Assembly: GCF_020615385.1 (NCBI RefSeq)
Contig: NZ_JAJAVB010000027.1
Location: 62,001 to 126,000, forward strand
Length of the DNA: 64,000 bases
Source: Jiella soli
GTDB taxonomy: Bacteria > Pseudomonadota > Alphaproteobacteria > Rhizobiales > Rhizobiaceae
Direction: 5' to 3'
In this document: one piece after another, positions 1,747 to 22,926 of the stretch
Numbering within the stretch: the first letter of the stretch is position 1
Layout of the letters: each line of letters begins with the position of its first letter
Notes under the pieces: generated by a model
The model's input: the letters and a program-made list of their open reading frames with translations, nothing else
Databases searched by the model: none
What the model was told of the DNA's origin: nothing
Translations under genes and position numbers: made by a program

Positions 1747-1762
1747 TGGTGCCCCAAGCCGG
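1747..1762. repeat. Left attachment site copy (16-bp direct repeat of tRNA-Thr 3' end)
   Basis: The 16 bases TGGTGCCCCAAGCCGG are identical to 22851-22866, the 3' end (CCA, discriminator, acceptor strand and part of the T arm) of the tRNA-Thr gene on the minus strand. Only this piece of the tRNA is present; similarity stops right after it. This is the expected product of site-specific integration into a tRNA 3' end and marks the left edge of a ~21-kb island. Confidence 0.9.
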
Positions 1763-6951: not shown

Positions 6952-7760
6952 CTACCGATCCGCTGTTGAGCACGCCGATTTCGGCGCCTTCTCCACTCGT
7001 GCGGGCGCACTTCGCCCCTGCTGCCAGACAAGGTGCGTGAGGTTGTAGGCCAGATTCGCCATTCCGATTTCCACCTCTGCGCGAACGATGTCGATGGTGC
7101 GGACGAACATCGCCATCGGGGCCGTCTGACGGGCGAAGTCATGTTCGGTCGCCGAGCGGATTCGCGAGCACCGGCCATTCGCCAGTGACGTCCTCTCGCT
7201 CCTCGCTCACACTTTTCAGCTTCAGGCGCTGGATGTCAGAGACGTAGCCGTTCTTCGTTTTTCTCCAGCCATTGCTCGTGCTTGGCCGATCGTTAGGCCG
7301 TATCCGCTTAAACCCGGCCCGGTGGTGGAGTGGTCGAGAACGTGGACGATCTGCGCGCCATCGTTGGCGGCGACGTTCGTGACCGTGAAGCCGCGGAGGA
7401 AGCCGTGCTGCCGACCGATGACCGCATCGTTCTTGTAGCCGAACGCCGGCACCACGATGTCGACTTCCCGCGGCTTGCCATCCGTCGCCGGCTTGGCCTT
7501 GGAGAACTCCACCGTCCACCGAGCATCGCGGTCCTTCTGCCTCAGCTTGGTGGGCTTGTTCTTCCAGCCATCCGGCACCTCACCGGCCTCAATAGCGGCC
7601 TTCTCATCCGCGGCGTTGCGCTGCTTCGGCGCGGTGTCAATTGTGCCGACGACGATTTGACCGCCCATCGCCATAGGTGCTCGCGGAACAGCCAGATCGT
7701 CCTCGCCTCCGGAACCCGGTCAGCCATCCGAGACGAGTATCTTGATCTATTGCTGGATCG
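6952..7760 (-). pseudogene. Decayed IS5-family transposase remnant
   Basis: Pieces of one transposase lie in three minus-strand frames. Near 7690-7730 is VPEARTIWLFREHL. From 7674 down come MAMGGQIVVGTID, KLRQKDRDARWTVEFSKA and FGYKNDAVIGRQHGFLRGF. Near 7240-7290 a shifted frame gives KNGYVSDIQR. Down to the stop at 6952 a further frame gives EHDFARQ, FVRTIDIVRAEVEIGMANLAYNL. This order matches IS5-type DDE transposases. The N-terminal part is missing, about 25 residues between REHL and MAMGG are deleted, and at least two frameshifts are present, so it cannot be active. I did not find intact terminal inverted repeats. Confidence 0.85.
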
Positions 7761-7863
7761 CCATGCTGCTATAAAGATCCCGCTTCCAGAGTTCAGCCGC
7801 CCCGCCTTCGGAATCGAGCAGCCTAGATTTGCGATGAGCGAGTGCATCGAAACTAACGAGCTA

Positions 7864-8706
7864 ATGAACTATCGACACGCATTTCATGCCGGCAACCACA
7901 CCGAAGTCTTCAAACATGCCGTGCTATCGATCGTCCTCGACATGCTGCGGCTCAAACCTCGTCCGTTCGCAGTCATCGACACGCATGCCGGCCTCGGCGT
8001 CTATGATCTGACATCACGCGAGGCGGCTCGGACCAACGAGAGGGCGGAAGGCGTGGAGCGTCTTGGAAACAGGGGCCTTCGGTCGGCGCCTGTCTATACC
8101 TCTTCTCTGGCGTCGACCAGGGCTGGGGCAGAGAACCTGTATCCGGGTTCTCCTGAGATCACACGCCTTGCGCTGCGCGGCTACGACCGGTTGATCCTAT
8201 GCGAGCTTCATCCTGAGGACGGGGAATCGTTGCGCCGGCGATACCGATCCGATCCGCGGGTTTCGGTCCACTTGCGCGACGGCTACGAGGCAATCGGCGC
8301 ACTCCTACCGCCTGCCGAGAGACGAGGACTGGTCTTCGTGGATCCCCCATTCGAGAAGACCGACGAGACGGGGGCGATCGGGAGAGCGCTCGTAAAGGGT
8401 TTTCGTCGCTGGGCGACCGGCATCTATATGGTCTGGTACCCAATCAAAGGATCCGAGAACGGAATGAAGATTGAGGCCGCAGCAATTGAGGCGGGCTTCA
8501 ACGACGTGCTCCGCGCCGAATTCTGCCCCTTCGTGCGAAGCGGACTGGAATTGGCGGGAAGCGGTCTCGTTATCTGCAACCCGCCGTGGACGCTCGACCG
8601 CAAGCTGCGGCAGCTCTGCGAGGAACTGTCGACGATCCTAGGCCACGGCGACGTCACATGGAGCGTCCGTCTCGCCTTTGACGAAGGGCGCGGCGAACAA
8701 TCCTAG
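7864..8706 (+). CDS. rlmJ: 23S rRNA (adenine-N6)-methyltransferase RlmJ homologue carried on the island
   Basis: The 280-residue product aligns along its whole length with RlmJ, which methylates A2030 of 23S rRNA with SAM. Signatures are NYRHAFHAGNHTEVFKHAVL at the N-terminus, the SAM site DTHAGLGVYDL, YPGSPEI, the catalytic DPPFE (DPPY in E. coli) and VICNPPWTLD near the end. The ATG at 7864 matches the family start; an in-frame ATG at 7833 is possible. RlmJ is normally a housekeeping gene, so its place here between an IS remnant and the nucleotide cluster is unusual. All key motifs are intact. Confidence 0.9.
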   Translation: MNYRHAFHAGNHTEVFKHAVLSIVLDMLRLKPRPFAVIDTHAGLGVYDLTSREAARTNERAEGVERLGNRGLRSAPVYTSSLASTRAGAENLYPGSPEITRLALRGYDRLILCELHPEDGESLRRRYRSDPRVSVHLRDGYEAIGALLPPAERRGLVFVDPPFEKTDETGAIGRALVKGFRRWATGIYMVWYPIKGSENGMKIEAAAIEAGFNDVLRAEFCPFVRSGLELAGSGLVICNPPWTLDRKLRQLCEELSTILGHGDVTWSVRLAFDEGRGEQS

Positions 8707-8969
8707 TGGATGCGTTCGCGGCGTTTGGGCTCATCTGCTTCAAAGGCATGGATTGCCAAGATCAGGTCGCGCCATCGCCGACACATTACGTAATCGCCTC
8801 GTTCAAACGCTCGATCCGCCCTGGCGTCCACAACATCAAGTGCGCGCTCGGACCCGAGATGATCGAAGAGCGTCATCGCACGGATCCACGCTGATCGACG
8901 CAGACCATAGTCGTGGGGCTCCGAACTGCAACCGAGACCTCTTACAACTTTTACGCTATATTTCCACAC
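8703..8969 (-). CDS. Small conserved protein, antisense to the cluster
   Basis: The 88-residue ORF, converging on rlmJ with a 4-base overlap, has a pattern I recognise from small alphaproteobacterial proteins: AWIRAMTLFDHLGSERALDVVDARADRAFERGDY followed by CRRWRDLILAIHAFE. That is, two helices with an Asp/Ala-rich middle and a W(R/K)xxxxAI segment. Such proteins are common near genomic islands; their function is unknown to me. The true start may be the internal ATG at 8879. I call it coding because the residue pattern is conserved-looking, not because of length. Confidence 0.55.
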   Translation of the reverse strand: MWKYSVKVVRGLGCSSEPHDYGLRRSAWIRAMTLFDHLGSERALDVVDARADRAFERGDYVMCRRWRDLILAIHAFEADEPKRRERIH

Positions 8970-9088
8970 ATGCCCTCCAGTGCTGCAGGATCGGCACTTT
9001 TCATGTATAACGACGTACCCAGGTCGCCAACTCGACGGCTAGACGTTATCACTTTTTGATAGTGCGAACGTGCGAAAGAGGGAATCGA

Positions 9089-10990
9089 GTGTCGTTTTTC
9101 GGACTGGCGATCGACGATGCGAACCTGGAACGGCCGATCGGCGCGGTCGGACGCCTTGAGCGATCCGCCCCCTCGACGGCTAGAACAGCCCGCCTTCCCT
9201 CGAACCTCACCGCGCTTTTGGCGGCTTGCGCCGAGCAGCCGGAAAGAGTGCTGTTCCTCGACGTCGAGACGACGGGGCTGAGTCACTTTTACGACGAGAT
9301 CACTGTAATCGGCTGGTCCTACAAAGGGCGTGCCTCAACGATCGTGAAAGGCGACTGCCATCGCGCACTTGTTGAGGATGCGCGCGACGCGGTCGCAATC
9401 ATCACGTTCAACGGAATTCGCTTTGATAGTCGGTTCCTGCGCGCGGAATATCCTGACGTCGTACTGCCGCAGCACCATCTGGACCTCATGTATCTCTGCC
9501 GTAGGGCGGGTTTGAAAGGCGGGCAGAAGGCGATCGAGAAGGCATTGGGAATTGAGTTGCGGACGAAGGTCGACGGCATCGATGGACTTGCGGCCGTCAC
9601 TCTGTGGCACCGCTACGTGCGTGGAGACGTCGGGGCTCTTGAGGGCCTAGTCCGTTACAATCGTGCCGATATCGCCGCGATGGGTGCGATCCTCGATCGG
9701 GTACTTGTCTGCTTGGACGTTGCGCCGGACCTATTCGTTGGCGACGTGTGCTTCGAGAAATGGGCAGGCCCTTGTGGGTTGGAGGAACTACCGACGTTCG
9801 AGCCGAGGAAGGCTGACGATTTGCGGCAGCTCGATTTCAAGTCCCTACTTGGCAATGGTCCGGCTTCAAGCGCGCGAATCGTCGGCATCGACCTGACCGG
9901 TTCTGAGGCGCGAGGTTCGGGCTGGTGCCTACTCGACGGCGACAAATGCCAAGTCGCCACAGTCTTTACTGACCGCGACCTGATCGACAGGACGATGTCT
10001 TCCAGACCCGATCTGATCTCAATCGACTCACCGCTTTGCCTTCCATCCGGTCGGACAAGCGTCGACGATGCTGATCCGGGACGCGAGAGGTTCGGCATCA
10101 TGCGGGAGTGCGAGCGTGAGCTGAAGCGGCGCGGTGTGAACGTGTATCCCTGTCTCCTGCCGAGTATGCAGAAGCTGACTGCGCGTGGAATGTTGTTGGC
10201 AGAGGAGTTTCGGCGTCGAGGGGTTCCCGTGATCGAGAGCTATCCTGGAGCCGCACAGGACATCATGCGCATACCTCGCAAAGGTGCCGGCGTGGAGTGG
10301 CTTCGGCTCGGTCTAGAGGAGTTCGGTCTGAAGGGCGATTTCGGAGAGGCGACGCACGACGAACTCGACGCAGCGACATCTGCGCTTGTCGGCTCGTTTC
10401 ACTGGGCGGGATTGTCGGAGTCTTTGGGAACGGCGGACGAGCCCCCGCTGATCATCCCGATGCTATCCGGTGCGCCCCATCGGCTACTGATCGGCATCAG
10501 CGGTCCGATCGCCGCAGGCAAGACGACGCTTGCGCGCGAACTCGAGGCACTGGGCTTTGCCTACGCTCGCTTTAGCGAAGTGATCGACGACGAACTTAGG
10601 GCGAGAGGTCTTCCTCTGGATCGGATCGAGAGGCAGCGTCTCGGCGCCGAGATCCATCGGACGGGCCGGCAGCGCTGGCTCGCCGGACGCACCCTCGCCC
10701 GCGTTGGAGACGCCGAGCGTGTAGTCATCGACGGTCTGCGCTTCGCAGATGACCATGCTTTCTTCGGGGAAATCATGGGCGGCTCGTATTTGCATGTTTT
10801 CGTTGACGCGGACGAGGCTTTGCGTAGAGAGCGGTACGCGTTGCGATCTGACGACGACTTCAGTGTCGCCGCCAGCGCCGATGTGGAAAGTGGGATCGAG
10901 ATCCTGCGGGGCCTCGCGCATCGCAGATTGGTTAACTGCGCGACGCGCGACACCGTTGCCGCCGAGGCCCGCGACCTTGCTGCAATCTAA
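9089..10990 (+). CDS. Three-domain protein: RNase H-like exonuclease, DUF429-like domain, P-loop nucleotide kinase
   Basis: The 633-residue protein joins three domains. Residues ~52-215 are a YprB/DEDD-type exonuclease: FLDVETTGL (Asp58, Glu60), ITFNGIRFDSRF (Asp113) and YNRADI (Asp194). Residues ~263-445 resemble DUF429, a predicted RNase H-fold nuclease: IVGIDLTGSE, LISIDSPLCLP, VIESYPGA and THDELDAATSAL. Residues ~466-633 are a P-loop kinase with GPIAAGKTT, like dephospho-CoA or (deoxy)nucleotide kinases. I chose GTG at 9089 because AGAGGG lies six bases upstream; TTG at 9056 is the longer option. It is the first gene of a four-gene block; the PurZ-like gene follows 14 bases later. Confidence 0.85.
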   Translation: MSFFGLAIDDANLERPIGAVGRLERSAPSTARTARLPSNLTALLAACAEQPERVLFLDVETTGLSHFYDEITVIGWSYKGRASTIVKGDCHRALVEDARDAVAIITFNGIRFDSRFLRAEYPDVVLPQHHLDLMYLCRRAGLKGGQKAIEKALGIELRTKVDGIDGLAAVTLWHRYVRGDVGALEGLVRYNRADIAAMGAILDRVLVCLDVAPDLFVGDVCFEKWAGPCGLEELPTFEPRKADDLRQLDFKSLLGNGPASSARIVGIDLTGSEARGSGWCLLDGDKCQVATVFTDRDLIDRTMSSRPDLISIDSPLCLPSGRTSVDDADPGRERFGIMRECERELKRRGVNVYPCLLPSMQKLTARGMLLAEEFRRRGVPVIESYPGAAQDIMRIPRKGAGVEWLRLGLEEFGLKGDFGEATHDELDAATSALVGSFHWAGLSESLGTADEPPLIIPMLSGAPHRLLIGISGPIAAGKTTLARELEALGFAYARFSEVIDDELRARGLPLDRIERQRLGAEIHRTGRQRWLAGRTLARVGDAERVVIDGLRFADDHAFFGEIMGGSYLHVFVDADEALRRERYALRSDDDFSVAASADVESGIEILRGLAHRRLVNCATRDTVAAEARDLAAI

Positions 10991-11004
10991 ATCAAGGGTG
11001 CGAT

Positions 11005-12057
11005 ATGCCCGTATCGGTAGTCGTCGGAGGACAATTCGGATCGGAGGGCAAAGGCAAGGTTGCGCTTGAGATCGTTCGCCGCAACTTTGGACCGACAACC
11101 GTCGTCCGCGTAGGAGGCCCCAACTCCGGACACACCGCGTACGATAAAGCAGGACGTCGGTGGGCGTTGCGCCAGATGCCTGCCGCCTGCGTGGATCGAA
11201 ACGTGGACGTCGTGTTTCCGCCCGGATCCTATCTCGACGTCGACGTTCTGTTGGAAGAAATATCGGCTCTCGACTACCCGACCGACCGCATCATCGTCAG
11301 CCCGTGGGCACAAGTCGTCACCGACGCGCACAGGCGTTGGGAACAGGAGGCGGGCCTCGTTTCCTCGATCGGTTCCACCGGATCGGGAACCGGTGCCGCC
11401 GTCATGGCAGCAATCGCACGCGACGCGCCAACATTCCCCCTGAAGACGCTTCATGCTGAGCATCATGGTTTACTGGCTCCGTTCGTCCGCTGCGGCGACA
11501 CGGGAGAGCTACTGGCCGATCGTCTCGGCAGCGGCCAGCGGATCGTCGTCGAGGGGTCTCAAGGTTTCGGTCTGTCGCTGCTCGATGGAGGGTACTGGCC
11601 AAAGGCCACCTCGCGATCGACGACAGCCGCTGCGGCGCTAGCGGAGGCCGGACTCGCGCCGCGGTGGGTCGACGACGTCACGATGGTCCTCCGAAGCTAT
11701 CCTATCAGGGTTGCGGGGGTTTCTGGTCCATTGCCTAAGGAAACGACATGGGAGGAAGTCGCACGTAGAGCCGATCTAGCGCTCGACATTCGAGAATACA
11801 CTACAGTGACAGGCAAGCTGCGCCGAGTGGGAGAATTCGACGCATTGCTAGTTCGCCGCGCTCTAGCTGCTAACGCTCCAAATAATTTGGTGCTGAATCA
11901 CCTTGACTACGTCGGACCGGCCGGCGGGATCGGCGATCCAAATAGTGTCGTATCGCAGTTTATCCGCCGAGTGGAAGCCGCCATCGGGCGGCGGATAGAC
12001 TGGTACGGCTTCTCTGCGTTAGACATCATGGCTGGGAGGGAGCAGGCGACTTCGTGA
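11005..12057 (+). CDS. PurZ-like adenylosuccinate synthetase homologue (Asp-to-Ser in the active site)
   Basis: The 350-residue protein is a short PurA-family enzyme, the length of archaeal PurA and phage PurZ rather than bacterial PurA (~430). The N-terminal loop reads GGQFGSEGKGK: the position of the catalytic Asp (E. coli Asp13) is Ser13, as I recall for phage PurZ, which makes N6-succino-2-amino-dAMP from dGMP and aspartate. The second catalytic residue is kept (PNSGHT, His43). Other matches to the family are SIGSTGSGTGAA, EGSQGFGLSLLDGG, PIRVAGVSG and the Asp-binding EYTTVTGKLRRVGEFDA. It follows the exonuclease-kinase gene by 14 bases with AAGGG before the ATG. PurA-fold identity is firm; PurZ activity is inferred. 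Confidence 0.85.
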   Translation: MPVSVVVGGQFGSEGKGKVALEIVRRNFGPTTVVRVGGPNSGHTAYDKAGRRWALRQMPAACVDRNVDVVFPPGSYLDVDVLLEEISALDYPTDRIIVSPWAQVVTDAHRRWEQEAGLVSSIGSTGSGTGAAVMAAIARDAPTFPLKTLHAEHHGLLAPFVRCGDTGELLADRLGSGQRIVVEGSQGFGLSLLDGGYWPKATSRSTTAAAALAEAGLAPRWVDDVTMVLRSYPIRVAGVSGPLPKETTWEEVARRADLALDIREYTTVTGKLRRVGEFDALLVRRALAANAPNNLVLNHLDYVGPAGGIGDPNSVVSQFIRRVEAAIGRRIDWYGFSALDIMAGREQATS

Positions 12058-12359
12058 CATACCACCCACAGATCGACTGCCTGTCGAACATTACCAGTCA
12101 TAATGAGGTAACTACGATTGCTGATCTCTCGAACGAATGGCTGGTAACGCGGCAGATAGTGGCGTCGATTTTTCATGCACACGACAGTGCGCGGGAGCAC
12201 GGGTCGTGATTCCGCAAGCCGGTAATCTTTGGACAAAAACGAAATATTCGGGCCTGATGTCGCCACCATGGGCGGGAGCGCGTTTTCTCTCTGTCTTTCC
12301 TTCTCCACTCTACGGCCTGATCCACCTGCGACGTTCTTTCAACCACACCAGAGGGACAG
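12058..12359. other. Spacer inside the nucleotide cluster
   Basis: No credible gene is visible in these ~300 bases. They are noticeably more A/T-rich than the flanking genes and may hold a promoter for the dCTP-deaminase-like gene. A clear GAGGG ribosome binding site stands at the right end. Confidence 0.45.
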
Positions 12360-13610
12360 GTGAGACGCTTTTTTGCACGTTGGGTCCCAATGTCTGAAGA
12401 TAGCGACGCGCAGGCTGCCGCCGACAGTTCCGTTGAGCAGGAGATTGTAGGTAGACTAGACGCTGCTGGATTGGCCGAGCCTTTGTTGGGCCAGCCCGAC
12501 CCCTTTCCAAGTATTGCCCCGTCCCTTCTCTCCGCTGATCATATAGAAAACTATGTCCGAAAAACTGGGATGATAGCGCCATTCCATCTTGGTGGCGGTA
12601 GAAAGGCGCGTCTTAAAAAAGCTTCCTACGAAGGGCGCATCGGCAGCCGAGCGTATCAATACAATGAGCAAGGAAGTCTAATATCGGTCTCTATGGATGA
12701 TGGTGTCTTGGTCGTACCTGCGAATTCCATCGTCTTCGTGGAATCGGGAATCGATTTCAGACTCCCCGACTACATGGCAATCCGTTTTAACCTGCAGATC
12801 CTTCATGTCCACCGCGGCCTCCTCCTAGGAACGGGTCCGCTTGTCGATCCGGGCTTTTGGGGAAAGCTTTGCATTCCTCTGCACAACCTGACCGATGAGC
12901 CGTACACGATCCCGCTCGACGAGGGACTGATCTGGATCGAGTTCACCAAGACGACGTCAAACCCAAGGCACGGGCGAGATGCGTTGGGAGAGCCGCAGCA
13001 AAAAGCCCAGTTCTGGGACATAGAGAAGTTTATTCGGAAGGCCGCGGCTGCTCCGCGGGGACGCGCTGAGCCCGTCGCGATCAGAAGCTCAATTCCGTCT
13101 ATGGTTACTACGGCGAATGACAAGGCGGATGCCGCATCTAAGGCCAGCGAACAAGCAGCAAAAGACGCTAAGCTGGCGGCGGAAGACGCGAGACACGCAG
13201 CGGAAGACTCGGAGAAGGCAAAAAGCACTCTCCACCGGCTAGGGTTTGGCGCAGCATTAGCAGGCGTAATTGCGATATTTAGCCTATTGCTTTCTCTCGC
13301 CTCTTTATATGCATCATACTACTGGAGTATTAAAAGCGATATCGACGAAATTCAAGTAAAAGTGGACGGGGCGGGAGCGGCGCTTAGCGAACTCAAGAAT
13401 CGTGTCTCATCAATGCGGAACGACGACCGTGCGCAGTTGCTTGAGGACCAGATCCGTTACCTGCGGAATGAGTTACTCCGCCTTCGCAGAGCGGCCCCTG
13501 CCGACGTTGGAGGGGGCGACGTCATCCCAAATCCTGAGACACGGCCCGTTCCTCGCGGTGCGGACGCGGCTGCGCCCCCATCCGCGGCGGACCCGATTGA
13601 TGCAAGATAG
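12360..13610 (+). CDS. Membrane-anchored dCTP deaminase/dUTPase-fold protein
   Basis: Residues ~50-205 resemble the dCTP deaminase/dUTPase fold: YMAIRFNLQILHVHRGLLLG, then GTGPLVDPGFWGKL and IPLHNLTDEPYTIP, ending EGLIWIEFTK. The Glu that activates water in classical Dcd (in the LE-x-x-N strand) appears to be replaced in IPLHN, so deamination is doubtful; nucleotide binding or a dUTPase-like reaction remain possible. An Ala/Lys/Glu-rich helical linker (~245-285), one transmembrane helix (~289-313) and a coiled coil (~318-365) follow. GTG at 12360 is chosen for its GAGGG site; ATG at 12390 is an alternative. Its end overlaps the next gene by 11 bases. Confidence 0.8.
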   Translation: MRRFFARWVPMSEDSDAQAAADSSVEQEIVGRLDAAGLAEPLLGQPDPFPSIAPSLLSADHIENYVRKTGMIAPFHLGGGRKARLKKASYEGRIGSRAYQYNEQGSLISVSMDDGVLVVPANSIVFVESGIDFRLPDYMAIRFNLQILHVHRGLLLGTGPLVDPGFWGKLCIPLHNLTDEPYTIPLDEGLIWIEFTKTTSNPRHGRDALGEPQQKAQFWDIEKFIRKAAAAPRGRAEPVAIRSSIPSMVTTANDKADAASKASEQAAKDAKLAAEDARHAAEDSEKAKSTLHRLGFGAALAGVIAIFSLLLSLASLYASYYWSIKSDIDEIQVKVDGAGAALSELKNRVSSMRNDDRAQLLEDQIRYLRNELLRLRRAAPADVGGGDVIPNPETRPVPRGADAAAPPSAADPIDAR

Positions 13611-14325
13611 ATACGTAGGAGACATTGGCGACTACGCGAAGCTCTCACTAGTGCGTCGTCTGGCGGCAGGCCGGAGGCTAGGGGTGGCTTGGTATCTGCA
13701 CCCGGACGAAGGCCACAACCAGGACGGACGCCACGTTAGCTATCTGCGGGACGTTGATCGCTGGCGTGGACCTGATCCCGAAGTTTTCGACTACATAACA
13801 AGCATCGCTGACGGCCCCAGGCTGGTCAGTGCATTGCAGGATGCGTTCGAGGAGGGGACACTTTTCGCCTCTGAGACTGTTCCGGCGCGGAACCTGCCTA
13901 GACGTCTGCGATGCGCGGAACGGGCGTTGTGGTTTGAGCGGACGCGGACGGCACTGACGGACGCCGAGATCATATTTGCAGACCCGGACAACGGGCTGGT
14001 CTCCGACGATCCCGCCCGACGTCTCGAACCCAACTTCGCAAAGCGAATGCCGATCTCCGAAGTCCTGGCTCTCGCGAACGGACGTCCAACGATTGTCTAC
14101 CACCACAACAGTCGCTTCAAGGGCGGCCACGAGGCCGAGATCGATTTCTGGATGAGGCGCTTGGGCCGCCCGAGCATTGCGGTCCGCTGCAACGCGTATA
14201 GCTGCCGCACCTTTCTCGTTATCAATCCCGACGCGAAGATCAGCGATAGGGTCGTGGGCTTTTGTCGAGACTGGCGCGACCATAAAGTCTCTCTCCACGC
14301 GAACGCGGCTGCCCGGAGCCCATGA
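13600..14325 (+). CDS. Conserved protein of unknown function (MQDRYVGDIGDYAK family)
   Basis: The 241-residue protein begins MQDRYVGDIGDYAKLSLVRR and continues GVAWYLHPDEGHNQDGRHVSYL. I recognise this beginning from a family scattered over bacterial genomes, often in variable regions, but know no function for it. An acidic FADPDNGL motif in the middle and IVYHHNSR further on look like conserved polar sites and could be catalytic or metal-binding; that is inference. The gene overlaps the dCTP-deaminase-like gene by 11 bases, so the two are very likely co-expressed. No signal peptide or membrane segment is seen. Confidence 0.75.
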   Translation: MQDRYVGDIGDYAKLSLVRRLAAGRRLGVAWYLHPDEGHNQDGRHVSYLRDVDRWRGPDPEVFDYITSIADGPRLVSALQDAFEEGTLFASETVPARNLPRRLRCAERALWFERTRTALTDAEIIFADPDNGLVSDDPARRLEPNFAKRMPISEVLALANGRPTIVYHHNSRFKGGHEAEIDFWMRRLGRPSIAVRCNAYSCRTFLVINPDAKISDRVVGFCRDWRDHKVSLHANAAARSP

Positions 14326-14585
14326 GGGCAACCACGCGACAGCCTTGATGCAAAAATCGAGTCGGAAGCGTACTGCGAGTCCTTTCTCCCGATGGAGCAA
14401 AAGGCTGACATTCTGCTTACGGCCTGATGCTCATCTGTGGCAACGGTTCTTATGACTGGAAAGCCGTCGTTCGCAAGGTCGCAATTCAATGGCAGCCAAG
14501 CGGGCGAAAGAGCCGTTCGGATTTGCAACAAGAGGTTCTCTTTGTGCGGCTCGCTACACGAAAAATCAGCCCTGGCTGGAATCCA

Positions 14586-15362
14586 TCAGATTGACTGCAG
14601 ATAACGGTTCAACTTGTTTCGTGCCCAAGCGGCGGAAACAAGCATTACACTGGCGACCAGGATCAAGCCATAGGAAAAGTATCGTCCCAGATCCGTCACG
14701 TTTGAACCCGTAAAATCAAAATACATTATCAGTCCGCCAAATCCAAAGCAGAGAATGATCGTGAACAGGTAGGAGGCCGTCGAAATAATTTTCAATTGTC
14801 GGTCAAGTGGACCTTGTTCAACGCGGCTTCGTGGATGCATGGCCTTTCGAACCTTCATCACTTGGTGTGCCAAGGGCATCAGCAAGAAAAAAGATAATAT
14901 CAGCAGGACAAAGCTTCCTATTTCACCAACAGGTAGAATATCTAGCAATCGTGCTGAAAGCGAGAGGGTTATACTCGCAAAAATGAAATCCAAGAGAATC
15001 AGCAACGGTCCCAAAAATCTCGGATCCGCCAACACTTGAACATTCGAATTCGGAGATTCTCGGATCTGAATTCGAATACCATCTTCTGTATCAGAGTTGA
15101 TAGGGGATGGTGCGCCGATACCGTCCATCAGTTGGCGCGACTCAAGCTCCAATTTTTTAATTTCAACCGAAGTCTTCCGATAAGTCAGGTACACCATCGG
15201 CAGACCTAGCAACGCTGCAATCCCTGAAATGATAGCAACGCCGATCTTGACTAGCAGCTCGAAGTTTTCGACTGCGGATTTCTCACCTTCTGAAGTGCCT
15301 TGCGCGAATACGCAAGTTGCAGTGAAGATGAGTACAACGGTCAGAATTAGTCGGTTTCGCAT
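14586..15362 (-). CDS. Multi-spanning membrane protein of unknown function
   Basis: The 258-residue product starts with a signal-like or first membrane helix (ILTVVLIFTATCVFAQG) and has about five further hydrophobic segments, near residues 38-60, 118-140, 146-166, 193-215 and 226-245. A polar stretch at 75-115 lies between the first and second. Base composition is clearly lower in GC than the chromosome, a sign of foreign origin. It is transcribed against the nucleotide cluster and stands alone. I do not recognise a family; a role in a defence island is only guilt by location. Confidence 0.6.
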   Translation of the reverse strand: MRNRLILTVVLIFTATCVFAQGTSEGEKSAVENFELLVKIGVAIISGIAALLGLPMVYLTYRKTSVEIKKLELESRQLMDGIGAPSPINSDTEDGIRIQIRESPNSNVQVLADPRFLGPLLILLDFIFASITLSLSARLLDILPVGEIGSFVLLILSFFLLMPLAHQVMKVRKAMHPRSRVEQGPLDRQLKIISTASYLFTIILCFGFGGLIMYFDFTGSNVTDLGRYFSYGLILVASVMLVSAAWARNKLNRYLQSI

Positions 15363-15881: not shown

Positions 15882-17045
15882 TCACGCGGCCTTGGCCTGA
15901 CCGTTGAAGATCTCGTGCAGCATGGCTGGGATCAGGGCCTCTACATCCTGCGCAGTGCTGGCGCGCATGGCGCGGGCTTCGCGGGCCTTCGCATGGAGGC
16001 GGTCAAACCATTGCTGGCGGCTCATCGGTGGCGTAGGAACCGTGAGTGCCTCCAGGGCTCCTTGGCCCAGAGTGCGATTCCGATCGGCACTTCCGCGCGA
16101 TGCGGATTGGACCTTGGCGAGACCTTCAGAGGTCTGGAGGTAGAACCAGATGAAATTGGCGGTCGCGAGCCCTTGAGTGGGAACGCATGTCAGATAGCGG
16201 TGCGACCCGACTCGCCCATGATCATCGGGGCCTGCCACCGCGAACGCCCCCTCCCAAGCTTTGATGTTGCTGAACACGAGGTCGCCCTGCTGAACAAGGA
16301 ATAGCTTTTGCCAGCTCAGCTCCGCGCCCAGCAGATCAGGTTTGTGGAACGTGCCTCGGCCGAACGAACGGACTCCGAGCTCTGGGTAGCGGGCATCAAG
16401 ATCGATTTCGACTGGCCTGCGCACCAAGGGCGCAACCTCGGCCATGGGGAGCAGGGTGGCGCCGTCGATGGCGCGCTGGAAGGCTTTCAGCAGCAGCGCC
16501 TGCGTTTCCCGCTCGGCCGCCTCTAGGGCGCGTCGGCGGTCTTCGACCAATGCAGCGACACTGTCGAGCTGCCGGACGATGCGGCGCTGTTCGTCGAGAG
16601 GCGGCAGTGGGACTTCGATCGCTGCAAGCTTTTCTACACCAAGCGTTCGGTTCCGACCGGCGCCCCCGGGGGAGGCCCATAGCAATTTGTCGCGCCCTCT
16701 GTCGTGCGTGAACCACCAGAAAAGGTACCGGGCCTCTGCGAGTTTCGGATCGACCACACAGGTAAGAAAGCGATGGGAACCGACCTTCCCGTCCTCAGCT
16801 TCAGTAGCGACAGCGACGGCTCCTTCCCATGCGAAAACAATATTGAATAGGAGGTCGCCTGACTTCCATTCAAATAGGCGTTTTTCTCCAAGCTCTGATC
16901 CCGTTTTGGGCTCCTTATGAAAGGCGCCACGCCCAAAGGATCGAATTCCAACTTCGGGATAAAATTGGTCTGGCAAAGTCTCGATCGGACGTCGGACCAG
17001 CGGTGCGATTTCCCTCATCGTCCGTAGAATGAGCTGCCCTTTCAC
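15882..17045 (-). CDS. hsdS: Type I restriction-modification specificity subunit
   Basis: The 387-residue protein has two target-recognition halves separated by a conserved helix (LDEQRRIVRQLDSVAALVEDRRRALE). The halves resemble each other closely: EIAPLVRRPIE...GIRSFGRGAFHK in the first and EVAPLVRRPVE...GVRSFGRGTFHK in the second, and both contain VGSHR(F/Y)LTCV and RNRTLG. HsdS sets the bipartite DNA site for the methylase and nuclease complex. I start it at the GTG at 17045, which overlaps the hsdM stop (GTGA); a longer reading would run into hsdM. Confidence 0.92.
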   Translation of the reverse strand: MKGQLILRTMREIAPLVRRPIETLPDQFYPEVGIRSFGRGAFHKEPKTGSELGEKRLFEWKSGDLLFNIVFAWEGAVAVATEAEDGKVGSHRFLTCVVDPKLAEARYLFWWFTHDRGRDKLLWASPGGAGRNRTLGVEKLAAIEVPLPPLDEQRRIVRQLDSVAALVEDRRRALEAAERETQALLLKAFQRAIDGATLLPMAEVAPLVRRPVEIDLDARYPELGVRSFGRGTFHKPDLLGAELSWQKLFLVQQGDLVFSNIKAWEGAFAVAGPDDHGRVGSHRYLTCVPTQGLATANFIWFYLQTSEGLAKVQSASRGSADRNRTLGQGALEALTVPTPPMSRQQWFDRLHAKAREARAMRASTAQDVEALIPAMLHEIFNGQAKAA

Positions 17046-18607
17046 AGCTTCTCTCCCAATACGGCTTTGATCTCGTCCATGATGCCGAGGATTCGCTGTT
17101 CCTGTGCGATGATCGCATCCACGATCTCGGCCGGCGCGCGATGATCGGCGACCTCGCCGGAATGCGGGTTCTTGATGTCCAGGTTGCACGCGACGACACG
17201 GTCCTGGGCGTCGCGCTGGATCAGGTCAGCAGCGGAGACCTTCCAGGCGCGCTCGTTCGGCTCGCGCTTCTTCCACCAGGCAAGGCAGTCCGCAAATTCC
17301 TCATAGGCCATGGGCGCGGTTTTCGAGTATTTCTTGCGGCCCTCCGGCAGCGGCATCTCGTAGTACCAGATGTCCGTCGTCGGTCCGGTCGTGTCGAAGA
17401 AGATCAGGTTTGCCGGGATGTCCGTGTAGGGCGCGAACACCCCTTCACGCAACCGGACCACCGTGTGCAGGTTGAACTTCTCGAGCAGGTCGGCCTTGAT
17501 CCGCGCTGAAATGCCATCGCCGAACAGCGTGCCGTGCGGAACGACGACCGCGGCCCGCGCGCGCCCGGCGCGCTTCAGCCGACGCATGATCAGTTGCAGG
17601 AACAGCAACGCCGTTTCGGCCGTGCGCCGGTCCTCCGGGAAGTTGTTGAGGATGCCTGCCTCCTCCTCGCCGCCGAATGGCGGATTGGTCAGGATGACAT
17701 TGACCCGCTGATCCTCGCCGATCTCGGCCAGGCGGAAGCGAAGGGCATTGCCGGGGTCGATGCGCGGGGCATGCAGACCGTGCAGCAGTAGGTTGAGCTG
17801 GGACAGCAGGAACGGCAGCGACTTGGCCTCGCCGCCGAAGAAGCTGTCTTCCTGGAGGATGCGCCGCTTCTCGACTGTATCGGCCTCGCGCTCAAGATGG
17901 AGGAACGCCTCGGTCAGAAATCCCCCGGTGCCGCATGCCGGGTCGAGGATGGTTTCGCCCAGCTTGGGATCGGTGACCTCGACCATGAACCGCACGACCG
18001 GCCGGGGCGTGTAGAACTCGCCCGAGTCCCCCGCCGCGTCGCGCATCTCGCGTAGCAACGTCTCATAGAGGCGGCCGAGTGTGTGAACTTCTTCCGAGGA
18101 ATCGAAATGGATGCCGTCGATCAGGTTGACCACGTCGCGCAGCAGGTAGCCGCTTTCCATTCGGTTCGCGAAGCCCTGGAAGACGGTCGCGATCACGTCG
18201 CGCCGTTCGCGACGCCCGTTATCGCCGCGCAAGCCTCGGAGATAGGCGAAGAGCCCTGGGCCGCGCGTGCCGTCCGGACGCTCGGTCATTTCGGAAACGA
18301 GAAACGACAGGAGGTCGGGGCCGGTAATGCCGTCCGCATCCGCCGCCCAGTCGCGCCAGCGATAAGGGGCCTCGATGATCGAGCGATAATCCTTGCCCGC
18401 GAGCTCCGCGCGTCCCTCCTCGATCCGCTCCATGTCGTCGAGGAACTTCAGGAACATGATCCAGGTGAGCATCGGCAAACGATCAAGGTCGCCGTTCAGC
18501 CCCTTGTCCTTCCGCATGATCTTGCGAGCGGATTTGATAATGCTGTCGAGACGCTGGGCAGTAGTCAGTTGCTTCGGCACAGCCTTCTTGCGGGCGGTTG
18601 TAGCCAA
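17042..18607 (-). CDS. hsdM: Type I restriction-modification DNA methyltransferase subunit
   Basis: The 521-residue protein has an N-terminal helical HsdM domain (IIKSARKIMRKDKGLNGD...MFLKFLDDMERIEE) and an N6-adenine methylase domain with SAM motif ILDPACGTGGFL and catalytic NPPFGG. Together with HsdS it methylates adenine in the recognition sequence and protects island and host DNA from HsdR. The start is a TTG with GGGAG eight bases upstream. It lies 17 bases after hsdR and overlaps hsdS, forming an hsdR-hsdM-hsdS operon read leftwards. Confidence 0.95.
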   Translation of the reverse strand: MATTARKKAVPKQLTTAQRLDSIIKSARKIMRKDKGLNGDLDRLPMLTWIMFLKFLDDMERIEEGRAELAGKDYRSIIEAPYRWRDWAADADGITGPDLLSFLVSEMTERPDGTRGPGLFAYLRGLRGDNGRRERRDVIATVFQGFANRMESGYLLRDVVNLIDGIHFDSSEEVHTLGRLYETLLREMRDAAGDSGEFYTPRPVVRFMVEVTDPKLGETILDPACGTGGFLTEAFLHLEREADTVEKRRILQEDSFFGGEAKSLPFLLSQLNLLLHGLHAPRIDPGNALRFRLAEIGEDQRVNVILTNPPFGGEEEAGILNNFPEDRRTAETALLFLQLIMRRLKRAGRARAAVVVPHGTLFGDGISARIKADLLEKFNLHTVVRLREGVFAPYTDIPANLIFFDTTGPTTDIWYYEMPLPEGRKKYSKTAPMAYEEFADCLAWWKKREPNERAWKVSAADLIQRDAQDRVVACNLDIKNPHSGEVADHRAPAEIVDAIIAQEQRILGIMDEIKAVLGEKL

Positions 18608-18624
18608 GATAGAGCTCCCTCAAT

Positions 18625-21003
18625 TCAAGCGGTGTAGAGCAGACGCTGCAGCTCGGTGACGGCGCTGCGCAGCTCCTTGCCCCCGCCGAAGCGGGCGGCG
18701 ATTTCTATGACGTTGCCCCAGTCGTTGAACGGGGGCACTTCCAGGATGTCGGGCAGCTTGAACTGGGCACTGCCGTGTTCGGCATACTTTTCAAGCACCG
18801 CATCCAGAACTTCGCGGGCATCCGGCCCAAAGCGGTCCAGAAACTCGTCCTGCTCCCTCACCAGACGGTCAGCGCGCTCGCGCCGGGTGCGCAGCGGCAT
18901 GTTATAGGCGAGATGGCAAAGGAGATCGAAAGGGTCTGCCTCCGGCTTTCCGACTGCATCAGCCAGGGAATCGAGGTCGATGCCCTTTTCCTCGAGCCGC
19001 TCGACGATTTCCGCCCGGCGTTGGGAGTCGAGCCAGTCCGTGCGCAGTTCCGACGCATTGGGATAGAGAGTGCGAACCTTGTCGCCTGTGTAATCGGTGA
19101 GCTGGCGGCAGGCGAGCTGCCGCCCGTCGGAATCGAGTTCGTAGACGAGGTGCCGGACGATCGCTACCTCGCCGCCGTCAACATAGAACTTGCGAGGGCC
19201 GTTCTCGGCTTCGTTCCCCAGCTCGACGGGTCCATCCGGGATGTCGGGCCCTTCAGGAAAATCGTCGGGATCCGGCGCCCCTTCTTCGATCTCACGCTCC
19301 TCGACGATATCGCCGTCCGCATCGATGACCGCTTCGTCCTCGCGGACGGGATCGCCGTCAAAAGCCGGATCGGCGAACATGCGTGTCGCCGTTCCGGTAT
19401 AATCGATGATGTTGAAGGCGAGCTTGCCGTAGTCGGGCCTGAGACGGGTGCCTCGTCCGATGATCTGCTTGAACTCCGGCATGGAGCCCACGACCCGCGC
19501 AAGCACGACGTTTTTGCAGGTCGGAGCGTCCACGCCGGTCGTGAGAAGCTGCGACGTGGTGAGGATGACCGGCGTCTGGGTCTCGACATCCTGAAACTTC
19601 GCCCTGTGCGCGCTCCCCACATCGCCCTCGTCGGACGTCACACGGCAAACGTAGTCGGAATGGTCCTTTACGAGATCGGTGTTTAGGGCGGCGAGCGCCT
19701 GCCGCATTTCGAGCGCGTGTTCCTGATCGACGCAGAAGACGATGGTCTTTGCGAAGCGGTCGGTCTCGGCCATGAAGCCCGCGAGATGTCTCGCAATGGC
19801 CTGCGTTCTTGCACGCAGTGCTACGACCCGCTCGAAGTCCCGCGTGGAGTACTCGGCGTCGGGGATCTCGCGTCCATAACGATCAAGTTCGCCACGCGTC
19901 GGCCGCCAGCCGGCAGCGTCGTAGTCCGAGATGACGCGATGGACGCGATACGGGGCCAGGAAGCCGTCAGCGATGCCCTGCGCAAGGCTGTACTCATAGA
20001 GCGGATCGCCGAAATAGTTGTAGGTGTCGACGTTGTCCTCTCGCCGCGGCGTCGCTGTCATCCCGATCTGGGTCGCAGGCTCGAACCACTCGAGGATCTC
20101 CCGCCAATTGCTGTCGTCCCGGGCGCTGCCCCGATGGCATTCGTCAATGATGATGAGATCGAAGAAATCGCGCGCATACTCCCGGTAGAGGCCCGGCCGA
20201 TTCTCGTCACGCGCAATGGACTGGTAGATCGCGAAATACATGTCGCGGCTCTTCACCGCCAGCCCACCAGCGATCTTGTGACGGGCGTCGCCAAACGGGC
20301 TGAAATCTTTTGCCATCGGATCGTCGACCAGAACGTTGCGATCTGCGAGAAACAGGATCTTCGGGTTCCATTTGACCCCCTTGGAATTCCAGCGGGCCGA
20401 CCAGAGCTTCCAGCAGATCTGGAAGGCGACGGCAGTCTTGCCCGCTCCGGTGCACAGCGTGATCAGTGCCCGCTTTCTGCCCTGAAGCGCCGCCTGAACG
20501 GCGCGGTTCACGGCGATTTCTTGATAGTAGCGAAGAGGTTTGGCTCGATCTGGAAACGTTGGCGTCAGCAGCCGTTCGGCCACTTGGTCGTCGACAATGC
20601 CCTCGGCGCGGCGGAGCCGAGCCCAAAGGTCATCAGGCGCCGGGAAATTCAAGATCGTTCGCTCGACGCCGGTCGTGTAGTCGAACTCGACAATCTCGAT
20701 CCCGTTGGTCGAGTACGCGAATTGAAGACCAAGGATTTCCGCATATTCCTTGGCTTGTTGGAGCCCCTCCGCAGCATGCCGGTAGCGGGATTTGGCCTCA
20801 ACGACGGCGATCGGGAAATCCGGATTATATCGGAGCAGATAGTCGGAGCGCTTCTGCTTGCCGCGGCGGGCCTTGCCGCCAATGAAGACAACACGACCGT
20901 TGGTGAAGGTTCTCTGTTCGTTTATCGCATGCGGGCGATCATCCCAACCCGCCGCCTGCAGCTTCGGGACGACGAACTTCCTGCAGGTATCGGCTTCGTT
21001 CAT
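18625..21003 (-). CDS. hsdR: Type I restriction endonuclease motor/nuclease subunit
   Basis: The 792-residue protein opens with a PD-(D/E)xK-type nuclease region (SDYLLRYNPDFPIAVVEAK, about residues 57-75). A superfamily 2 helicase motor follows: Walker A TGAGKTAVA, ADRNVL, DECH box, TATP, and the C-terminal motor motif QIIGRGTRLRPD. It cuts unmodified DNA after translocation. I chose the ATG at 21003 rather than the TTG two codons upstream. The length is short for HsdR but within the range of the EcoEI-like subgroup. It is the first gene of the RM operon. Confidence 0.93.
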   Translation of the reverse strand: MNEADTCRKFVVPKLQAAGWDDRPHAINEQRTFTNGRVVFIGGKARRGKQKRSDYLLRYNPDFPIAVVEAKSRYRHAAEGLQQAKEYAEILGLQFAYSTNGIEIVEFDYTTGVERTILNFPAPDDLWARLRRAEGIVDDQVAERLLTPTFPDRAKPLRYYQEIAVNRAVQAALQGRKRALITLCTGAGKTAVAFQICWKLWSARWNSKGVKWNPKILFLADRNVLVDDPMAKDFSPFGDARHKIAGGLAVKSRDMYFAIYQSIARDENRPGLYREYARDFFDLIIIDECHRGSARDDSNWREILEWFEPATQIGMTATPRREDNVDTYNYFGDPLYEYSLAQGIADGFLAPYRVHRVISDYDAAGWRPTRGELDRYGREIPDAEYSTRDFERVVALRARTQAIARHLAGFMAETDRFAKTIVFCVDQEHALEMRQALAALNTDLVKDHSDYVCRVTSDEGDVGSAHRAKFQDVETQTPVILTTSQLLTTGVDAPTCKNVVLARVVGSMPEFKQIIGRGTRLRPDYGKLAFNIIDYTGTATRMFADPAFDGDPVREDEAVIDADGDIVEEREIEEGAPDPDDFPEGPDIPDGPVELGNEAENGPRKFYVDGGEVAIVRHLVYELDSDGRQLACRQLTDYTGDKVRTLYPNASELRTDWLDSQRRAEIVERLEEKGIDLDSLADAVGKPEADPFDLLCHLAYNMPLRTRRERADRLVREQDEFLDRFGPDAREVLDAVLEKYAEHGSAQFKLPDILEVPPFNDWGNVIEIAARFGGGKELRSAVTELQRLLYTA

Positions 21004-21403
21004 GCGCAATCTACTTCGCCCAGCTTCGACATGCCATCGCGCTGCAAACGGCTTGTCAAAGAACTCGGCTCAGACCAACGCGCAATTCTTTGGGTTTGGC
21101 AGCTCTTTTGCCTGACAACGGCTCGGAGAAGCTACAGCGTGGCCGACTGATGCCGCAAGCCTTATTCCGTCCCTGGCAGCAAGGACTCGCGCCGGGCTTT
21201 AATCATTCATCCGGGATCTGCACTCGCAGCGACTGAAGCCTCCGGCCCAAAGATGTTCCCCGTGGAGTGGTACCTCGACCCGATCGGGGGCGAGCTGCGA
21301 CTGTCGGAGCGTCCGCATAAGTCACCTTCTTGATAAGTCGTTCGCGCAATGCCAAATTTCGGCCTGGCACGCTCAAAAGCTGCCGGTCCGCTTTCCTTCG
21401 CGG
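21004..21403. other. Spacer between RM operon and integrase
   Basis: This stretch probably holds the hsdR promoter. A short plus-strand frame around 21250-21340 (MFPVEWYLDP, then GELRLSERPHKS) reads like protein but has no clear start or family, so I leave it as a possible gene fragment. Confidence 0.4.
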
Positions 21404-22621
21404 TCAGATAATAGCCGCGACTTCAACCTGGCGCCGCGCACGCTGTCGCAATTCGTCGCAAAGATCTGCCCATGCCTGTGCCATCTCGACCCGCTCTTTC
21501 CAATAGAGCGCACGATTGTAGACGCGGCGCACGGCATTGGAGTCGACATGCGCGAGGCTCGCTTCGATCACGTCATAGCGCCAACCGCGCTCATTGAGGA
21601 TCGTCGAGGCCGATGACCTGAAGCCGTGGGCGGTGTGAGTGCCCTTCCCATATCCAACCTTATCCAAGGCGTAGTTCATCGCGTTCTCGGAAATCATCGC
21701 GTGCTTGCGGCGATAGCGGTTCGGGAAAATGATCTCCCCGCCGCCGCTGATCTCCCGTTGCGCCTCGAAAATCTCCACGGCCTGCCGCGACAGCGGGACC
21801 AAATGTTCCCGACGCATCTTCGCGACTTCCTTGGGTATCGTCCAAACGCGCTCTTTGAGATCGACATCGCTCCACCGCGCCAAACGAGTTTCGACGGGGC
21901 GGCAATAGCAGAGCGACTGGAGCTTCAGGGCATGTCGGACGCTCCGATCCCCGTAGGTCTCCAGGGCGACGAGAAGCTTGCCGAATGCCTTCTCGTCGGT
22001 GATCGCCGCCGTGCTTTCCACCTCGACCTTCGGCAGAACCTTCTTCAGCGACGTGACGGGATTGATCTCCGCCTCATCGCGAACGATTGCGAAATCAAAG
22101 ACGGCAGCGATCCGGCTCCGAAGTCGAACCGCACTCTCCCGGCGACCGGAGTCAGCGACAGCCTCGATCACAGGCAACACGTCGCGAGCCCGAATGTCCG
22201 CAATCGGCATGTCGTGGAGTGGTGCGGCGAGTGTTTCGAGGAGCCAAACGTTCTTCTGCAAAGTCTGGACGGCCGGGTTCTTCTTCTCCAGCGCAGTCAG
22301 GTAGAGGCTCACCATGTCGCGGAACGTAGCCCGACCCGCCGATATTGCGGCCTCGACGTTTCGCTTCTTCGGCTCCGGGTCCTTCCCACGTGCGAGATCA
22401 CCCTTGAGCCGATCGCGTTCCACCCGAGCCTCGGCAAGGCCCATGTCTGGATAAATCCCGAGGTTCTTCGCACGGCGCTCGCCGTTGATCCGGTAATCGA
22501 TCCGCCACGTCTTTTTTCCCGCAGGCGTGACGAGGAGATGAAGCCCGCCCCCATCGGTCAGTTTTGTGAGCTTTGAGACCGGCTTCAGCTTTTTCAGAAT
22601 CAGAGAATTTAGCGCGTTCAT
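21404..22621 (-). CDS. int: Tyrosine integrase of the P4 type
   Basis: The 405-residue protein has the N-terminal DUF4102-like arm-binding domain (LTDGGGLHLLVTPAGKKTWR...LGIYPDMGLAEAR), a SAM-like core-binding domain and a C-terminal catalytic domain. Catalytic residues I can place are Arg241 (CRPVETR), His332 and Arg335 (HGFR), His358 (SLAH) and Tyr368 (VYNR). It inserts the element into the 3' end of the neighbouring tRNA-Thr gene. It starts 230 bases from the tRNA and points away from it, the usual arrangement for such islands. It appears intact. Confidence 0.96.
   Translation of the reverse strand: MNALNSLILKKLKPVSKLTKLTDGGGLHLLVTPAGKKTWRIDYRINGERRAKNLGIYPDMGLAEARVERDRLKGDLARGKDPEPKKRNVEAAISAGRATFRDMVSLYLTALEKKNPAVQTLQKNVWLLETLAAPLHDMPIADIRARDVLPVIEAVADSGRRESAVRLRSRIAAVFDFAIVRDEAEINPVTSLKKVLPKVEVESTAAITDEKAFGKLLVALETYGDRSVRHALKLQSLCYCRPVETRLARWSDVDLKERVWTIPKEVAKMRREHLVPLSRQAVEIFEAQREISGGGEIIFPNRYRRKHAMISENAMNYALDKVGYGKGTHTAHGFRSSASTILNERGWRYDVIEASLAHVDSNAVRRVYNRALYWKERVEMAQAWADLCDELRQRARRQVEVAAII

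Positions 22622-22850: not shown

Positions 22851-22926
<76 letters not shown>

Follow-up and report, generated by a model that had tools for sequence, protein, structure and literature searches.

A PurZ operon of bacterial genomes with an exonuclease-kinase fusion and a membrane-anchored dCTP-deaminase-fold protein: a candidate anti-phage system

The window, a stretch of 64,000 nucleotides from Jiella soli (contig NZ_JAJAVB010000027.1, positions 62,001 to 126,000), contains four consecutive open reading frames (ORFs) on the forward strand, at 9089-10990, 11005-12057, 12360-13610 and 13600-14325. Their positions agree with a first-pass annotation of this DNA, as does the overlap of 11 bases between the last two (13600-13610). 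That annotation had interpreted the four genes as one system with a deoxynucleotide theme. The theme is upheld, and the first three genes do belong together in an operon that is kept across phyla; the fourth does not share this conservation. The conservation of the first three makes it certain that the three-gene operon is real and not a chance placement. Its features are:

9089..10990, + strand: gene A (P0001, 633 aa), DEDDy 3'-5' exonuclease, DUF429 (RNase H-like) and AdkA/CoaE-like nucleotide kinase
9251..9700, + strand: DEDDy exonuclease domain, residues 55-204; D58, E60, D113, Y190 and D194 invariant
9884..10396, + strand: DUF429 domain, about residues 266-436; D268, D313, E342, D424, E425 and D427 invariant
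10481..10936, + strand: P-loop nucleotide kinase domain, about residues 465-616; G472, G477 and K478 invariant
11005..12057, + strand: gene B (P0002, 350 aa), PurZ-like 2-aminoadenylosuccinate synthetase with Ser13
12360..13610, + strand: gene C (P0003, 416 aa; a later ATG start is possible at 12390), dCTP-deaminase/dUTPase-fold (DCD) domain, transmembrane (TM) segment and coiled coil, hereafter DCD-TM
12522..12965, + strand: DCD-fold domain, residues 55-202; Asp163 kept, Pro173 at the deaminase Glu position, RFN in place of the RSS motif
13251..13307, + strand: TM segment, residues 298-316, AALAGVIAIFSLLLSLASL

Relatives were collected with a profile made from a five-row PurZ alignment, which was scanned against 84,980 species genomes and yielded 385 sequences. 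Operon counts refer to 81 loci, namely the window and the best 80 of the 385 relatives, i.e. the most similar ones; counts out of 85 include four plasmid loci in addition. Gene A, or a separate kinase, was considered adjacent when it shared the strand of PurZ and ended no more than 300 bp ahead of it, and the DCD gene when it started at most 400 bp downstream. Gene A or the kinase directly precedes PurZ in 71 of the 81 loci (median gap -1 bp), the DCD gene directly follows it in 66 (median gap -4 bp) and both adjoin it in 58. Most gaps are within about 25 bp and overlaps are frequent, while the remaining loci mostly have an inserted gene D homologue or a rearranged gene order. Co-occurrence in other genomes had been set beforehand as the check that could refute the idea of one system, and for three of the four families its outcome is decisively positive.

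The hosts represent a dozen phyla in all and comprise Alpha-, Beta- and Gammaproteobacteria, Mariprofundus, Bacillota, Bacteroidota, Cyanobacteriota, Actinomycetota, Verrucomicrobiota, Fibrobacterota, Chloroflexota, Latescibacterota and others. Further searches at class, phylum and family level yielded few additional matches, and the distribution is therefore patchy. Two of these, obtained with gene A as the query, were reciprocal cases: a single new full example among 398 genomes from the phylum, in which PurZ and DCD come next (locus L216), and a kinase-PurZ fusion with DUF7002 (L217). Within the host's own family, gene A occurs in a single genome out of 298. Two minor variants carry an HD protein similar to YfbR and DatZ, either with PurZ and DCD-TM (L011, L059, L063) or with a kinase-PurZ fusion and DUF7002 (L012, L014, L015). 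The latter variant on a plasmid of Rhizobium sp. CB3171 (L014:1-6694) lies beside AbiE, SIR2, DUF87 ATPase and SbcCD-like genes.

The nuclease and nucleotide kinase that had been proposed for P0001 are indeed present in one chain, with Pfam matches to RNase_H_2 (E 2.3e-27) and the AAA_18 kinase (E 1.9e-8). The DUF429 assignment is weak by Pfam (E 1.7e-4, just under the Pfam cut-off) and strong by residue conservation. Conservation of the three active sites was determined in a 29-row alignment, and the DxE, D and YxxxD motifs of DEDDy exonucleases are all found. The PDB relative of the exonuclease is MrfB (8un9, E 1.8e-6) and that of the kinase is AdkA-like/UPF0200 (3lw7, E 3.1e-13), with dephospho-CoA kinases ranking next. 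PADLOC models gave weak matches only, the best to a DEDDh model (E 2.1e-4) and one of a dCTPase model to the kinase region (E 0.0037); no PADLOC model matches genes B, C or D. In four loci from Bacillota, Bacteroidota and Fibrobacterota (L060, L067, L089, L090) a PHP domain stands in place of DEDDy, in the two scanned together with HHH_8, as in the exonuclease part of PolX. By their domain matches, two unrelated types of 3'-5' exonuclease thus appear to occupy one position, and since the type is swapped while the position is kept, exonuclease activity presumably matters. The kinase is a separate gene in two loci (L045, L056), and its direct fusion to PurZ in others suggests that it is tied to the product or substrate of PurZ.

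Haloarchaeal and Dyadobacter plasmid matches to P0001 were rejected as operon relatives, being single-domain homologues that lack PurZ. Many haloarchaeal plasmids (L006, L007 and others) encode stand-alone relatives of the exonuclease domain, with 38-44% identity. The Dyadobacter plasmid (L005:3298-6594) has a stand-alone DUF429 protein, 54% identical to the DUF429 of gene A, directly after a DACNG-DACNH-DAC diadenylate cyclase; this pair is perhaps another nucleotide-signal system.

P0002 has the PurZ-type serine that had been claimed for it. Its best NCBIfam match by E-value is NF038379, at 243.7 bits and hence below the 300-bit cut-off, and it matches phrog_1211 with an E-value of 2e-74. 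Serine instead of aspartate occupies PurA position 13 in all 84 cellular PurZ rows that were scored, while Asp is found in the PurA rows and in a deazapurine paralogue. A separate full-length housekeeping PurA exists in each of the 26 genomes checked. A tree of 180 sequences, made by a quick method and with many forks open, places the operon PurZ in a clade of its own (Shimodaira-Hasegawa-like approximate likelihood ratio test, SH-aLRT, 96-99), outside the characterised phage clades PurZ (Vibrio VP2, Acinetobacter, Alteromonas) and PurZ0 (Arthrobacter Wayne and relatives). The operon PurZ is neither the housekeeping enzyme nor the phage PurZ. Beyond phages, only four archaeal PurZ sequences were included in a 2026 survey (PMC12884076).

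PurA-like genes of R. leguminosarum (L013), located beside folE, purB, queE, queC and nitrile hydratase, were rejected as PurZ relatives, as they keep the Asp and group with PurA. Their surroundings on plasmid pCC283b_4 (L013:9375-17723) form a toyocamycin/sangivamycin-like deazapurine cluster in a rhizobium, with genes for FolE, PurA-like with Asp, PurB, QueE, an IMP dehydrogenase-like protein, nitrile hydratase, QueC, HAD, phosphoribosyltransferase and 6-carboxytetrahydropterin synthase.

For P0003, the dCTP deaminase/dUTPase fold and the TM helix that had been proposed are both borne out. The predicted structure matches dCTP deaminase-dUTPases with a Foldseek E-value of 8.6e-11 and a VIA Z of 17.1, and the DCD domain is followed by a long helix, one TM segment and a coiled coil. 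A hydrophobic segment beyond the DCD domain is present in 81 of the 83 DCD proteins scored. The domain lacks both marks of a catalytic dCTP deaminase, the Glu that follows DPGF and the phosphate-binding RSS motif: the former position is Pro in 99% of the domains (Pro173), and R142-F-N144 is found where dUTPases and deaminases have R-S-S. The position of Pro173 is, we take it, that of the catalytic Glu of dCTP deaminases, which agrees with the E138 and E145 mutants listed for the structure matches. The Asp of the DPGF motif (Asp163) is kept in 99%. Since the deaminase Glu is replaced by Pro and the TM/coiled-coil tail is retained, the sequence points to a binding domain or sensor more than an enzyme. 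A DCD-domain protein with TM segments is also encoded on a Rhizobium beringeri plasmid (L016:3307-8789), where it follows an AAA ATPase/UvrD-helicase pair in a Gabija-like arrangement without PurZ.

The operon of the window resides on an island flanked by a 16-bp repeat of the 3' end of tRNA-Thr, which also holds a P4-like primase and the following features:

1747..1762, strand not assigned: left attachment-site-like repeat, TGGTGCCCCAAGCCGG
15882..21009, - strand: type I restriction-modification operon (S, M, R)
21404..22621, - strand: island integrase of the tyrosine recombinase type, assigned by reading the sequence, with no PADLOC match
22851..22866, strand not assigned: right attachment-site-like repeat, the tRNA-Thr 3' end

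The link to defence genes made by the first-pass annotation is supported by this restriction-modification operon and by the neighbours of the operon elsewhere. Among 121 neighbouring genes, 230 PADLOC families were matched, six type I methyltransferases among the matches, versus 23 families among 120 control genes taken at arbitrary positions of these genomes, each once and mostly of HerA/MotB-type models; redundant type I models inflate the number of families, and related loci do not count as independent, but the direction is clear. Comparison with Jiella pacifica (L021) revealed that the flanks are 84% identical DNA (7723-11656 and 13601-14332), while the 3' half of PurZ and DCD-TM are replaced. 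These parts are thus exchanged as a cassette, a pattern suggestive of joint transfer of PurZ and its DCD-TM partner. In close pairs of loci, divergence is often greatest in DCD-TM, for instance in L036/L039, where identity is 92% for DUF429 and 47% for DCD. Exchange of this kind is characteristic of genes engaged in conflicts with parasites. Judged from this setting, the operon is likely an anti-phage defence. A gap of 302 bp separates PurZ from DCD-TM in the window (12058-12359); it is unusual, as the genes overlap or nearly touch in other loci, it holds no recognisable gene, and it may be a scar of cassette exchange.

Relatives in viruses were sought at several levels. The gene A fusion is absent from 50,697 phage records, including a tblastn search with P0001, and from IMG/VR scans; exonuclease-DUF429 occurs in none of 80 viral PurZ loci, and single-protein scans of viral contigs with P0004, P0002 and P0001 gave no matches. 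In some of the 80 viral loci PurZ is immediately followed by a short DCD/Dut-like gene. This agrees with DutZ of the PurZ0 phages, a group of enzymes in the dUTPase superfamily that hydrolyse dATP and dGTP and whose gene is found in every PurZ0 phage genome (PMC12884076). In the tree, the clade of the cellular operon also contains a few orphan viral PurZ; they stem from viral contigs, some of them large, that lack gene A (L116, L117, L118, L119, L120, L121, L123), and possibly are captured or counter-defence genes. A further viral contig (L183:2881-5776) encodes a kinase, a kinase-PurZ fusion and DUF7002 one after another, resembling the plasmid variant found in L012, L014 and L015.

The operon can be compared to several known systems. 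With the phage Z-genome pathway (PurZ/PurZ0 with DatZ, MazZ, DutZ, DmtZ, DpoZ) it shares the PurZ Ser in place of PurA Asp13 and, as in some viruses, a dCTP-deaminase/dUTPase-superfamily gene just downstream of PurZ. It differs in being cellular, in its nuclease-kinase fusion and separate PurZ clade, and in a DCD partner that is membrane-anchored and has changed catalytic positions, whereas a Z polymerase and DatZ/MazZ are missing from the core. The earlier claim that DatZ, MazZ and DpoZ are absent holds near the core in the window, where DutZ and DmtZ are likewise not found, and fails for the minor variants, six loci of which have the HD protein. Kongming (KomABC) resembles the logic proposed below, in which a host enzyme and a deoxynucleoside monophosphate (dNMP) kinase produce a non-canonical deoxynucleoside triphosphate (dNTP) that activates an effector. 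Here, however, PurZ would replace KomA and DCD-TM would replace KomB/KomC, and the kinase is operon-encoded instead of phage-encoded; none of the window operon genes has a KomA (adenosine-deaminase-like), KomB (HAM1-like) or KomC (SIR2-like) domain. Depletion defences by dCTP deaminases and dGTPases are also directed at deoxynucleotides and include the DCD fold, but the operon DCD has Pro for the deaminase Glu and a TM tail, and the PADLOC dCTPase match falls on the kinase region only. The MrfB/YprB DEDDy exonucleases resemble the nuclease domain of gene A, and the PolX PHP exonucleases that of the gene in its place in four loci; the operon domains differ by their fusion to DUF429 and a nucleotide kinase beside PurZ. 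As a gene system the operon appears to be new, and as a principle it would join nucleotide-signal immunity; no paper linking PurZ/adenylosuccinate synthetase or DUF429 with the operon was found in the open-access literature, and priority is unproven.

We put at about an even chance that the operon is mobile, protects against phages, probably by abortive infection, and signals via a non-canonical purine deoxynucleotide. A more specific version is tentative and falls somewhat short of that: the alarm would be a 2-aminoadenine deoxynucleotide (dZTP or a relative), produced by a cellular PurZ and a dedicated kinase and read by a membrane-anchored, non-catalytic receptor of the dCTP-deaminase fold, which would constitute a widespread undescribed immune system. 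The signal chemistry, a sensed purine deoxynucleotide from PurZ and kinase, is what we infer from the gene content. Infection or DNA damage would provide DNA 3' ends for the exonuclease, by which dNMPs would rise, including dGMP, which is normally scarce. PurZ would then convert dGMP and aspartate into dSMP, host PurB dSMP into dZMP, the fused kinase dZMP into dZDP and host Ndk dZDP into dZTP. DCD-TM, whose fold is trimeric in known relatives, would bind the unusual dNTP in its non-deaminating pocket and, once ligand-bound, may disrupt the inner membrane or arrest the cell. RlmJ-like proteins and the deoxynucleoside kinase of other loci could play an ancillary part, tuning the pathway or feeding it. 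In phages, the conversion of dGMP to dZTP by PurZ together with enzymes of the host is established (PMC12884076), and dITP as the signal of Kongming is a precedent for a non-canonical dNTP alarm (PMC12948488).

Several points weigh against signalling. The retained Asp163 is the dUTPase-type catalytic Asp, so dNTP hydrolysis may persist in DCD-TM. The score of P0002 is under the family cut-off, and its specificity for dGMP we infer from one serine and the family. The need for an exonuclease and DUF429 in signalling is not obvious, and the RlmJ-like proteins have a role that signalling leaves unexplained. Finally, the operon frequencies are biased towards similarity by the choice of the best 80 of 385 relatives.

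The operon might instead sabotage nucleotide pools or replication, with PurZ, the kinase and an active DCD-TM consuming dGMP, dGTP and dATP, or poisoning phage DNA with 2-aminoadenine that the fused 3'-5' exonuclease edits or degrades, i.e. by a change of substrate without signalling to a membrane effector. This we consider unlikely, yet deserving of serious attention: Asp163, the exonuclease that is either conserved or swapped for another, the DCD-like genes just downstream of PurZ in several viral contigs and the activity and constancy of DutZ in PurZ0 phages (PMC12884076) all fit it, while the loss of the deaminase Glu and RSS motif, a conserved TM tail that would be superfluous for a dNTP-pool enzyme and the lack of a Z-specific polymerase do not. 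A stress or salvage operon outside defence, in which an MrfB-like repair exonuclease, kinases and PurZ recycle damaged or released deoxynucleotides, seems improbable to us. It would account for the kinship of the exonuclease domain to the DNA-repair nuclease MrfB and for the deoxynucleoside kinase of some loci, but not for the very patchy spread, the mobile island with attachment-site repeats in a defence-island setting, or a TM-anchored DCD that is rapidly replaced.

Two explanations remain. Incorporation of dZTP into the DNA of the island, plasmid or host, for protection or marking, is quite improbable. The Ser of PurZ and the DatZ/YfbR-like HD protein of minor variants speak for it, as does a report that describes three phage S-2L genes as sufficient for 2-aminoadenine in bacterial DNA (PMC8342488); against it, the core operon has no DpoZ, MazZ or DatZ homologue, nucleases and a membrane protein do not fit, and its PurZ clade stands apart from known phage PurZ and PurZ0. 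That the genes are a remnant of a Z-genome prophage, or unrelated cargo brought together by chance, is hardly credible, even though they sit on an integrated island, PurZ is known from phages and the kinase-PurZ/DUF7002 variant occurs on viral contigs. The fusion gene is missing from all the phage and viral collections searched and is conserved with PurZ across phyla; this cross-phylum conservation, the viral PurZ loci without fusion and the separate PurZ clade refute a prophage remnant for the main operon type.

PurZ is known from phages in whose DNA 2-aminoadenine takes the place of adenine, and here a PurZ branch of its own is found in hundreds of bacterial genomes from a dozen phyla. If the operon serves defence, it would extend bacterial immunity by a further signalling nucleotide and a receptor fold (dCTP deaminase/dUTPase) that is new to it, bear on the origin of phage PurZ and be a source of enzymes for non-canonical DNA building blocks. 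If it signals as preferred here, the chemistry of Z phages would have been turned into a second messenger.

The locus is wider than the four genes, since an RlmJ-like gene and a convergent small ORF recur with the operon. The accessory features of the window are:

7864..8706, + strand: extra RlmJ-like gene, associated with the operon
8703..8969, - strand: small conserved ORF, convergent with the RlmJ-like gene and present in 10 other operon loci
13600..14325, + strand: gene D (P0004, 241 aa), accessory protein with an RlmJ-like methyltransferase fold and DPDNG in place of DPPF

P0004 has no family match, and its predicted fold resembles RlmJ, the 23S rRNA m6A2030 methyltransferase (Foldseek E 7.6e-5, Z 11.8), although DPDNG replaces the catalytic DPPF motif. 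Gene D is found in only 26 of the 85 loci, at varied positions and on either strand, and is for that reason regarded as an accessory. The product of the gene at 7864-8706 resembles RlmJ in sequence. Both proteins are additional to another RlmJ of the genome, which is more distant and 42% identical to the 7864-8706 product. The RlmJ-like gene adjoins the operon in 12 loci including the window, mostly with the small convergent ORF. In many loci outside the Alphaproteobacteria the next gene encodes a deoxynucleoside kinase. In the window, the operon is adjoined at 14586-15362 (- strand) by a gene for a membrane protein, its family not recognised, that converges on it.

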